A DNA stretch of 64,000 nucleotides from Paramecium tetraurelia (Eukaryota > Ciliophora > Oligohymenophorea > Peniculida > Parameciidae): contig NW_001799641.1 in NCBI RefSeq assembly GCF_000165425.1, forward strand, positions 315,027 to 379,026, read 5' to 3'. The translations under genes and the position numbers were made by a program. Below the pieces are notes generated by a model. The model was not told the DNA's origin. It did not search any database and saw only the letters and a list, made by a program, of their open reading frames with translations. Below are positions 28,452 through 32,733 of the stretch, piece by piece. Within the stretch, counting starts at the first letter, position 1. Each line of letters begins with the position of its first letter.

Positions 28452-29676
28452 ATGAATAAGTTCATAACCATAGCTTTGATTGCCTTAGTAAGTGTTTAAG
28501 CCTTGGATATCGATTTCGCTCTCCTCTTGCAGGTATGAATTATGAATATATTAAAAGACAGGATCAGAATCAAATGATGCTGTTTAAGCCGTCTATGATT
28601 TATTGAATGATTTGAAAACCAGCAACATTGAAGCTCAAGGTGTTGCAGATGAAAAGAACATTTCCGATGAAGAAATCGGATAAGGAAGAATTGCTGCTCT
28701 TTCCAAAGTTAATGAATTAAATCAAAAAGCCTGGGCAAGTGCTAAGGCCAGAAGAGAACAAATTGGTGTTGAATACAGAGTATTTTGATTTAATAAATTT
28801 CAGGAAGCAACAGACTACATTGCATGGGCAACATAAAGATTAGCTGATATTGATAGAAGAGAAGTTGAACTTGAAGAATTGAGATGTTTCTCAAATGGAT
28901 TGTTTGTCAGAGCTATCAAATAACATAATGATGCTTTGGGAGTCATCAAAATATTGAAGAATGATTTAAGGTATGATTGATATATTAACATCTAGCGGTT
29001 ATTTAACAGGAGCTCCATCATCAATGGTTGAATTGAAGGTTGAGAATGTTGCTGACAAATTGAAATAATACAGTCAATTGTTCAATTAAGATGCCATGTC
29101 CAAATTTGCTCAATTAGCTGCTGAATAAGCTTCTGGAAATGCTGAATTACATGCATTAGGAGAATCTGATGCTTCTACTAGTGGAGAAAGACAACCAGGA
29201 GTTAACGTTGGATAACTAGTTTATAACGCCTTGAGTGACTTAGAAGATCAATTAAGAGCTGCTCTTGCTGCCTTAGAACAAAATGAAATAGCTGGATATT
29301 ATCAATTGGCTGATTGGTTGGCTGATTCTGAAGCTGAAAAAGTTCACCTTTAAGACGAAATTCAAAGAAAAACTTAACTCCAAGATAAGTTGGTTGTGGT
29401 AATGCTTTTCCTCTATAATTCTTTAGTAAGAATAAGCTGCTCTTGCAGTCTAAGCCAAGGCAAATTCAGTCTTAAAAGATTCATAGAATGCTATTAATGC
29501 TGCTACTGCCAGTCTATACGAATTGAGAGATCTTTATGAAACTGAACTCAATAGAAGAAATGGTATTTAATAATTTCATTATTTTAGAGGAAAATGCTAT
29601 TATTGATGAAGTCATTCACATCTTCAAATAGTAAGTTTTAGAAATGGCTAACTAATCCTCCTATGGCAAAAAGTGA
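28452..29676 (+). CDS. Trichocyst matrix protein
   Basis: About 365 aa with five introns (24-28 nt). Signal peptide MNKFITIALIALVSVQA, then a heptad-rich, largely helical protein with Ala, Glu and Gln (for example WASAKARREQIGVEYR, ADWLADSEAEKVHLQDEIQ). This composition, the two pairs of long helices, and the spacing of an N-terminal pro-region match the trichocyst matrix proteins (TMPs) of Paramecium, which are made as precursors, cleaved, and packed as a crystal in the secretory trichocyst. The first intron ends AAG; a competing CAG five bases later would break the frame. The frame is intact and ends with a short basic SYGKK tail. Confidence 0.92.
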
Positions 29677-29794
29677 TTATGACATATAAAAATTATCAAT
29701 TTAAACTGAAACAATTAGTCTCATCTTTTATATTAATAAATAATTATAAAAAAACAAACTTAAAAAATGGTTTGTAAATATTTTTAATGATTTT

Positions 29795-30649
29795 TCACTT
29801 AGGTGATCCCCAAGAAATTGGTTGAACTTATTCAGTTGTTGCTTCAACCTTCCATTCATTATTGTTACTACTTGTTTTCCATTCATTATTTCCACTTGAT
29901 TTCCATTCATTATTATTTCCACTAGTTTTCCAATCATTGTTATTTCCACTAGTCTTCCAGTCATTATTTCCACTTGTTTTCCATTCATTATTATTATTAG
30001 CAGCTGACTTCCATTCATTATTATTTCCACCTGATTTCCAATCATTATTATTCCCACTTGATTTCCAATCATTATTGTTTCCATTTCCTTGCTTATTATT
30101 CCAGTCTCCATTAGGATTACCTCCTCCATTCCTCTTGCCATCCTAATTCTATTTCCAATTATCTCCTTTCTAAAAGTTTCCTTTTCTACCATCTTTATTT
30201 TCCCAAGGTCTACTCCTATCATTACCTCCATTTTTATCGAAGCCACTTCTTCCATTTTCTTTATTCCCATAATCATTCCTTTAATTATCATTCCAACCCC
30301 CTTCTGTATTTCTCTTTTTAAATTTGTTATTTTGAAAATTATTATTTGACTCAAATTTTTAGTTGTAATTATTGTTTGGTTTATCATACTTTCCTGAATT
30401 CCAATCAACTTTCCCTTCAGGATCCTTTTGCTTATTCTCAACATTGTTAAGAATAGCCTTTAGAATGTCTGTTATACTCTTGTTCTCTGATTCTTTGGCA
30501 AACTCATCTAAAATATCCAGCAAGGTTATTTTCTACAAACTTGCAAATAGCTTATCTGTTTAGATCTTTTGGTTTCCGGTTTTGTTCTTATCATCTTGTT
30601 ATGATTCTGAAGGATAGGTTTTCTTTTTTATTGGCAACTAGTTTTCCAT
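29795..30649 (-). CDS. Tryptophan-repeat protein, candidate Argonaute/Piwi-binding factor
   Basis: 284 aa, single exon. The N-terminal ~95 residues are basic, then helical (KLFASLQKITLLDILDEFAK). The rest is N-, G- and K-rich and low in other hydrophobics, but has about 17 tryptophans: GGWNDNQ, SRPWENK, GDNWKQN, GDWNNKQ and then nine near-identical units of the type DWKTSGNNN or EWKSSGNN. Evenly spaced Trp in a disordered G/N/S context is what Argonaute-hook proteins use to fill Trp pockets on the PIWI domain; Paramecium Nowa proteins and development-specific Spt5m are precedents for such hooks. Here Trp is flanked by D/E and K rather than G, so the role is inference. Confidence 0.85.
29851..30087 (-). 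repeat. Tandem 24-30 bp coding repeat (W-repeat)
   Basis: Nine in-frame copies encoding [D/E]-W-K-[S/T]-[S/G/A]-[G/S/A]-N(2-4). Copies differ in length by one or two codons of Asn and by silent changes, so they are not a recent clean duplication. On the plus strand the array gives a false hydrophobic ORF (repeated FPLVFHSLL-type units). Confidence 0.9.
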
Positions 30650-30690
30650 TTAAAAATAAATACTTTAAATTTAGTTAAATTAAATAATAA

Positions 30691-32671
30691 TCATTTTTTA
30701 GATTTCGATTTGCTCTTCTTCTCTTTAGATTTAGACTTAGATTTTGATTTCTTCGGCTTCTTTTCTTTAGTTTCTGCTCCAGAATCCTTAGTCTTATTAA
30801 CAGAAGTATCAGCAGTACTAGATTTTTTGACTTTTTATAACTGAGCCAACTCTTCTTTGGTGAATTACTTCTATCCATTGATCCAAATCCCTTTCTGTAA
30901 TCTCTGATCAGGCCAAATCATCAAACCTTTACCATGCATAATCCCATTCTTCCATCCTCCTTTGTATGTTCTACCATCTGGCCAACTGTACTCTCCATAC
31001 CCTTATCTTACATTGTTGACATATTCCCCTTTATAAGATTTTCCTTCCCCCCATATAAACTCTCCTTAGCCATGCATTTTCCCATCCTTCCATTCACCTT
31101 CGTATCTTCTTCCATCAGGCCAAGTTTAAGTTCCTTTTCCACAAATCTGTCCTTCTTTGAACATCCCTTCAAAAATACTCCCATCCACATATTCCAATCT
31201 ACCCTTTCCATCCTTTTTACCTGTTTTGAATCCTCCTACATATACATTCCCATCCCCTGTTTATTCTCTCCCTTCGCCACTCTGTTAATATTATAACTAC
31301 ATTTACCTTTTAATTCTTAAGCCATTTACCTTCATATGATGAGCCATCCTAATATACCAAAACTCCAACTCCTTCTCTTTCTCCATGAACAAATTCCCCT
31401 GCATAGTAATCACCATTCTAAAATATGTATCTACCATATCCTTGGAGAAAATCGTTAAGCCATTATCCTTCATAAAAAGCTCCATTAGAAAATATTTGTT
31501 TTCCAAATCCATGCCTTTTACCCATTTACCATGTACCTACATAAACATCTCCAGTATCAAGAATGATATATGGTCCTAACATTTCACAATTATTCATATC
31601 AACATTTATGTTTATAGGCTCCAATTAGGCTGATAATGCAACTACATGTTCATTTTCAATCTTTAAAACATCTGTATTTGATGGCACTGCCTTTTCTAAA
31701 CTTGGTTTATGATTTAGAACTTCTACTTCATTCTCAGGTACATTTTATTATTAGGACTTGATGAATTATTATTATTAATTGGGTGCAAAGGACATGATCA
31801 TTTACTCTCCTCTTGAAGATTGAAGGATGATTTATCGTTCCTAAGGAGGGGGAGGTGCTTGTTGTACTTCTTCAGGATTATCATCTACCAAAGAGATCGT
31901 ATCTTCTTGATGTTATTAAAAGAGTGGATTATCAAGCACTACCTATGATTTTGGTTATTCTGTTTTCGGAGATTGTTATATTAAGTTTGGATCCTCCTTT
32001 TATTCTACTATTTCTTATTCTAATTCTAATGGTTCTTCTTCTAATTCTTCGCATTCAGATTCAACATCTTGTTTTGGAGTTGCTAATGGTGTGATTTCTG
32101 CACTATCAAATGCTTCATATACTAATTCACCGTTTCCTTACAAATTTAATGGGGAAGGGAGAGGCTGAAATAGAACATCTTTTTCCCCTTTGGATAAATA
32201 ATCAACCAATTGCTTATTTGATTCTTACTATTTAGTTGGACTTTTATTTTTTTCCTTTTAGGATTGTCCTTATGTAAAAGACCTTTCTTATTTCTTCTCA
32301 ATTTCAAAAAGAGGAGGACTTGCTAGTTAGTTCTTATCAGCTGGTTGAAAGTTTAGTGATCTTTACTCTACATCGAGATTTAAGTTAGATGACTGATTTT
32401 AAGGATCATATAAGTTTAACTATGAATGATTATATAATATTTGTACCATTTACTGATGTATTTTCTGGTTTTCTAAGACCTATTGCCTTTATTGTTCTTC
32501 AGCCTCTAATTATCTTTTGAGCATACTTTCCTGCATATTATATATACATTACCTCTCCATTGTTTTGTCTTTGCCATTCCAATTCTTGTTGGGGATCCAT
32601 GTAGATGTGTCTATTTTCATAGAGTCTAATTTAGTCCATGGTGTTGAATTCCAATTAATGTTATTGTCCAT
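30691..32671 (-). CDS. MORN-repeat protein with long N-terminal extension
   Basis: About 650 aa with one 25-nt intron inside the repeats. The N-terminus (MDNNINWNSTPWTKLDSMK) is followed by a Q-rich coiled coil and an acidic E/P-rich linker of about 250 residues. The C-terminal half has about nine MORN repeats of the form YxGxWxxGxxxGxGxxxWxDG (clear copies: GKMHGQGEFIWGEGKSYKG, GYGEYSWPDGRTYKGGW, GVGVLVYQDGSSYEGKW). It ends in a K/S-rich tail (repeated KSKSK). MORN proteins bind membranes or lipids and, in protists, build cortical and ciliary scaffolds. An internal ATG at 31801 could start a shorter form but the frame is open upstream to 32671. Confidence 0.88.
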
Positions 32672-32733
32672 GTTAAACACAAGTTCCCATTATTATTATA
32701 TAAATATTTTATAAACAGATATAGTATCAAAAT

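Follow-up and report, generated by a model that had tools for sequence, protein, structure and literature searches.

Argonaute hooks are recognised by multiple tryptophans spaced roughly at least eight residues apart in a disordered chain. Such hooks are plausible in ciliates, since the Tetrahymena proteins Wag1 and CnjB are described, in the sections of the source drawn on here, as GW-repeat proteins required for scnRNA selection (PMC5666084), and Nowa1/2 are credited in similar excerpts with putative Argonaute-binding domains (PMC4231744). A preliminary description of the locus reported here, which read its product as an Argonaute/Piwi hook, named these proteins as precedents, and as precedents they stand. 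Its further example, Spt5m, is unsupported by the portions of the literature used here, which describe the SPT5 isoforms of Paramecium as devoid of any repeat structure at the C-terminus (PMC12716044) and the Spt4/Spt5m data as giving no proof of physical interaction (PMC8934623). Animal AGOs strongly conserve the three tryptophan pockets of AGO2, which are highly variable in the PIWI clade, according to part of a 2025 analysis that also cites reports of GW proteins bound to PIWI-clade Argonautes (PMC12477606); variable pockets would therefore still allow binding to a Ptiwi. A second system with regularly spaced tryptophans is Spt5 of S. pombe, which in the excerpt consulted carries 18 copies of the nonapeptide TPAWNSGSK (PMC10659198), so that a Trp at every ninth residue of an N/S/G/K chain is not enough to mark a protein as a hook. 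A third is formed by the aromatic-sticker low-complexity domains of prion-like RNA-binding proteins, with dispersed aromatics in an N/G/S-rich chain.

The window that we analysed, a 64,000-nucleotide stretch of the Paramecium tetraurelia genome, contains a gene for a Trp-repeat protein that belongs to a family of three. The features of this gene, and the position of its distant paralog, are as follows.

29795..30649, minus strand: coding sequence of the Trp-repeat protein, 284 aa + TGA in code 6, intron-free; dN/dS 0.177 against the close duplicate
30620..30649, minus strand: N-terminal motif, residues 1-10, M[ED]NQ[LM]PI..K, common to all three paralogs
30425..30553, minus strand: conserved segment, residues 33-75, with short helices predicted at low confidence (mean pLDDT 60), present in all three paralogs; dN/dS 0.019 with dS near saturation
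30092..30424, minus strand: low-complexity linker, residues 76-186, with dispersed W83, W119, W149, W165 and W183 plus Phe/Tyr
29846..30091, minus strand: Trp array, residues 187-268, nine [DE]WK units from W195 to W266
29798..29824, minus strand: C-terminal tail, residues 276-284, QPISWGSPK (QPVSWGSPK in the duplicate)
C231:60935-64549: distant paralog (L003), 248 aa and 3 Trp, with the same N-terminal segment

The intron-free open reading frame claimed for this position is borne out, running for 284 codons from ATG to TGA under NCBI code 6 and containing ten in-frame TAA/TAG codons that are read as Gln. The same frame stays open upstream to an ATG at 30694, overlapping the stop of the next gene; we adopted the start at 30649 because the duplicate has no ATG at the position matching 30694 and because M[ED]NQ[LM]PI opens all three paralogs. 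A candidate GTA..TAG intron across the start ATG was rejected, the duplicate having TAA, not AG, at the intron end. As its coding status and the selection described below indicate, the Trp-repeat protein is a real gene product.

Directly upstream, at 30691-32680 on the minus strand, lie two open frames that both match Pfam MORN and look like exons of one gene. The 41 nt between the stop of the MORN-repeat frame and the ATG of the Trp-repeat gene (30650-30690) may hold the end of one gene together with the promoter of the next. This spacer is identical to that of the duplicate at 42 of 43 positions (counting two stop-codon bases), though the coding dS is 0.64; a 20-kb alignment contains 39 segments with 39/40 identity, this one among them, and the spacer is hence not unique. 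The convergent neighbour (28600-29690, plus strand) encodes an Ala/Glu-rich, probably helical protein that has no Pfam match above the cut-off and that we take to be reminiscent of trichocyst matrix proteins. Besides MORN, Pfam gave only chance-level rows on the neighbouring frames.

The protein contains 15 tryptophans, rather than the approximately 17 first counted. Nine of these form an array (W195, 204, 213, 223, 231, 240, 249, 257 and 266) with gaps of 9, 9, 10, 8, 9, 9, 8 and 9 residues, which agrees with the nine units 8-10 residues apart in the preliminary description; all nine have the core [DE]WK, and the stricter consensus [DE]WK[ST]xG holds for only six. Every Trp between W195 and W266 sits in [DE]WK (9/9), as does every Trp between W189 and W254 of the duplicate (8/8), and neither array contains a gap the size of a skipped unit; the array limits were set by the [DE]WK motif itself, which places the adjacent W165 (NWK) and W183 (DWN) outside. 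Ser or Thr follows WK in eight of nine units here and in six of eight in the duplicate. TP or SP is absent from all 17 units of the two genes, a single SP lying in the C-terminal tail, and the Cdk9-type site that would be expected in each unit of an Spt5 C-terminal repeat is accordingly missing (0/17). Only two of the 15 tryptophans have a Gly neighbour (GGWN at 119 and SWGS at 280), so the protein is not to be classed as a GW protein, a result that does not bar the hook mechanism if flanking residues vary as the preliminary description states. Multiple tryptophans about eight or more residues apart in a low-complexity chain are thus seen directly, in a chain that is presumably disordered. Beneath the array is a 27-bp tandem DNA repeat (8.8 copies, 79% matches by TRF). 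Eight successive gaps of 8-10 residues arose in none of 200,000 shuffles of residues 76-284, with the same outcome for the duplicate, in a test that takes no account of tandem duplication. As tandem duplication yields regular spacing cheaply, the evolutionary comparisons outweigh the shuffling.

Protein searches of the whole genome (69 Mb in 231 contigs) found three family members: the window gene, a close duplicate on contig C143 and the distant paralog on C231. The close duplicate is a protein of 272 aa with 14 Trp and an eight-unit array, 77% identical to the window gene in the genome search and 80% in the alignment of the paralogs. Among the matches listed, its contig is collinear with the window over ~18-39 kb and again near 45-46 kb, a stretch that takes in the left-hand gene and the right-hand MORN-repeat gene. 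From this collinear gene order we infer a block duplicate, which probably stems from the last whole-genome duplication. Between the two copies dS is 0.64 and dN 0.11, and the ratio of 0.177 indicates that the protein is selected. By region, dN/dS is 0.155 for residues 1-32, 0.019 for residues 33-75 (at dS 2.05 over few sites), 0.226 for residues 76-186, 0.285 for the array (at dS 0.49) and 0.651 for the last 16 residues, the last value resting on two silent differences. Residues 33-75 are therefore the slowest of the five regions.

This selection extends to the tryptophans. Fourteen of the 15 align to Trp in the duplicate and the remaining one falls in a gap, as against 138 identical positions among 180 other residues (one-sided Fisher p = 0.029 with the gap Trp dropped, a modest value, with array units that are not independent of each other). 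The dispersed tryptophans outside the array are also retained. Within the array, the Lys is kept via AAA/AAG codons and the acidic residue via D/E exchanges. The preliminary description would have Trp number and spacing conserved between relatives, and in this same-genome duplicate both are kept (15 versus 14 Trp, arrays of nine versus eight units); such conservation does not point to Argonaute in particular. The similarity of units within each gene (0.789 and 0.777) is no higher than that between the genes (0.793), and the array therefore predates the duplication that gave rise to the two copies, without later homogenisation.

The distant paralog shares with the other two proteins the opening M[ED]NQ[LM]PI, the core of segment 33-75 (LQKITL[LM]DILD[EQ]FAK[ED]SE[NS]KS) and an NNY..NQKFE..NKF stretch that lies in the linker of the window gene. 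It has no Trp array, its tail being D/R/Y/N-rich with DRYDR-like units; within one genome, then, the array is kept in the close duplicate and missing from the distant paralog. Past residue 75 the distant paralog has 10 Tyr, 7 Phe and 3 Trp, against 3 Tyr, 5 Phe and 15 Trp in the window gene, a comparison that involves one paralog with a poorly aligned tail. The aromatic fraction of this part is nonetheless 0.110 in the window gene, 0.107 in the duplicate and 0.116 in the distant paralog, with mean aromatic spacings of 9.0, 9.2 and 7.9 residues, respectively. On the simplest reading, spaced aromatics rather than Trp itself would be the family property, with Trp specialised in one branch; alternatively, the distant paralog may have lost the array or changed function. 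The surrounding region of C231 has matches, among those listed, to the window genes lying at 14-15 kb and at 46-47.6 kb, with order and strands inverted as for the Trp gene, which suggests an older duplicate block. Further listed matches at 41-43.8 kb (25-56% identity) are collinear, but the largest of them have the wrong strand, and they were left uncounted.

The most slowly evolving part of the protein, the predicted helical segment at residues 33-75, did not figure in the preliminary description. A single-sequence structure model of residues 1-88 has helices at 15-38, 43-52 and 59-74 (mean pLDDT 60, pTM 0.26); predicted helices within the conserved N-terminal part are the sole usable outcome of this weak model. 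Pfam gave no match of weight on the three paralogs, the single row being GET2 at E 3.6. Spt5 carries NGN and KOW domains; Pfam detected neither in the protein, nor any domain linked to transcription or deadenylation, nor a recognised RNA-binding domain. Matches in the PDB, a single row at E 1.9 for the single protein and five rows for the N-terminal profile (the best, a designed protein, at E 0.35), were dismissed as chance. No relative was confirmed when the N-terminal alignment was scanned against viral contigs (170 pattern stretches) or the full alignment against contigs of bacterial and archaeal genomes (212 stretches).

Elsewhere in the genome, the [DE]WK-encoding pattern GAWTGGAAR is common (5713 places versus 2234 for a control), and the array used as a protein query found only the window gene and its duplicate (both of two candidates). 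The spaced pattern GAWTGGAN{17,21}GAWTGG occurs at 127 places versus 21 for its control. Among the 100 of these 127 matches that were listed, three within 250 bases occur only in the duplicate, and contigs C22 and C46 each have two close together; the window gene itself is among the other 27, where further arrays are possible. A DNA pattern for Nowa-like GW repeats hit 54 genome places, of which 53 were telomere-like by eye, with G4T2/G3T3-type repeats that we take to be Paramecium telomere repeats, and the remaining one (C17) had no convincing GW-repeat frame. Titles and abstract openings among the literature matches listed name no DWK/EWK repeat protein in Paramecium, and as far as seen the protein is an undescribed, Paramecium-type one. 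In word searches of the main texts of two papers on Ptiwi09 partners or PRC2, one, which describes Gtsf1 as a partner yet to be characterised, does not contain the word 'hook' (PMC11724296), and the other contains none of the terms tried (PMC10073204). Main-text literature thus yielded no link between the Trp-repeat protein and Ptiwi; the protein tables of Ptiwi purifications sit in the supplements.

What the array does can be read in several ways. If it were a hook, as the preliminary description proposed, its spaced tryptophans would enter PIWI-domain pockets of a Ptiwi, bringing in Ptiwi-small RNA complexes or gathering them into clusters. The recurrence of Trp every ~9 residues along a low-complexity chain, preserved in the duplicate, fits this proposal, as do the GW-repeat Argonaute partners known from the Tetrahymena work excerpted above (PMC5666084) and the many Piwi-domain genes of this genome (20 matched places, 19 above the cut-off, some of which are by position exons of one gene). 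Compared by description only, the protein resembles GW182/TNRC6, Wag1, CnjB and Nowa1/2 in having several spaced tryptophans in a low-complexity, hydrophobic-poor chain and differs from them in the D/E before and K after its array tryptophans and in the scarcity of adjacent Gly. Nor does a hook account readily for a paralog that dispenses with the array yet retains the N-terminal segment and a similar density of aromatics, mostly Tyr/Phe in place of Trp. In addition, the Piwi segments at three of the 20 places, when compared with the PDB, all best match PIWI-clade structures (in one example at E 1.6e-49, versus 9.1e-29 for the AGO clade), the clade in which the part of the 2025 analysis used here finds the Trp pockets to vary (PMC12477606), and the excerpted S. 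pombe Spt5 repeat provides a look-alike rhythm (PMC10659198). The hook is possible; as the other evidence leans against it, we consider it unlikely. That Spt5 rhythm is itself the starting point for a reading of the array as a Trp-nonapeptide platform for a non-Argonaute partner, either a stand-alone counterpart of the Spt5 C-terminal repeat or a Trp-pocket ligand for an RNA-processing complex such as a deadenylase; phosphorylation of the Ser/Thr two residues past Trp might tune it. TPAWNSGSK, as given in the same excerpt (PMC10659198), has the same period as NNDWKSSGN and a similar N/S/G/K setting, with one Trp per nine residues in a tandem array, and the role would be vacant, since the Paramecium SPT5 isoforms are reported, in the portion cited, to have no such repeat (PMC12716044); the frequent Ser/Thr past WK is also in keeping with it. 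The likeness is nevertheless one of period and composition only: the units of this stand-alone 284-aa protein have no TP or SP, Pfam finds no Spt5 domain and nothing tying it to transcription or deadenylation, and the array is missing from the distant paralog, all of which makes this platform, in our view, as unlikely as the hook; both are live rivals of the reading favoured below.

We regard as quite improbable a broader version, in which a separate nonapeptide platform with the acidic-Trp-Lys core would act in trans, anchored through its N-terminal helices. It would provide transcription or small-RNA machinery, Ptiwi included, with a Trp array equivalent to the repeat that Paramecium Spt5 is reported to lack, in a context unlike GW/WG. 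The least probable reading is that of a neutral coding minisatellite, a 27-bp repeat that slippage expanded within a disordered tail able to tolerate it, the tryptophans being meaningless. The tandem repeat at the DNA level, the difference in copy number between the duplicates (nine versus eight), the distant paralog without an array and the faster evolution of array and linker than of segment 33-75 would all follow from slippage, but the dN/dS of 0.285 within the array at dS 0.49 and the retention of all 14 aligned tryptophans, dispersed ones included, would not, and this reading is already weakened.

We tentatively favour, at a little short of even confidence, a disordered aromatic-sticker scaffold of a small family, docked or dimerised via its N-terminal segment. 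The helical segment at residues 33-75 would dock to a partner or self-associate, and the long N/G/K-rich tail would offer aromatics about every nine residues as multivalent stickers, including the [DE]WK array in the window gene and its duplicate and mostly Tyr/Phe in the distant paralog. These stickers would hold a ribonucleoprotein or other condensate together via aromatic, cation-pi and RNA contacts; we infer the disorder, the condensate, the binding of RNA or partners and the protein's place in the cell from sequence. This reading is preferred because aromatic fraction and spacing stay close across three paralogs while Trp gives way to Tyr/Phe, because segment 33-75 is the slowest part and occurs in all three with no Pfam match of weight, and because the aligned tryptophans are kept and the two arrays are wholly [DE]WK, with Lys and acid retained. 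The protein shares with aromatic-sticker domains its dispersed aromatics in an N/G/S-rich low-complexity chain and the use of Trp versus Tyr/Phe among paralogs, and differs from them in its strict [DE]WK units and in having no recognised RNA-binding domain by Pfam. Sticker models suit nearly any aromatic low-complexity chain and predict little, and the strict [DE]WK core with its near-fixed period looks more specific than stickers require. Overall, the protein resembles a sticky scaffold of a general kind more than it does an established partner of small-RNA machinery. Should it be no more than such a scaffold, the family would be a modest, neat case of Trp versus Tyr/Phe exchange at similar aromatic spacing. 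If the array binds Ptiwi or polymerase machinery, it would present a new Trp-ligand context, and the family, in which two of the three paralogs of a single genome have the array, would offer a clean ciliate test of how a Trp array originates after duplication.
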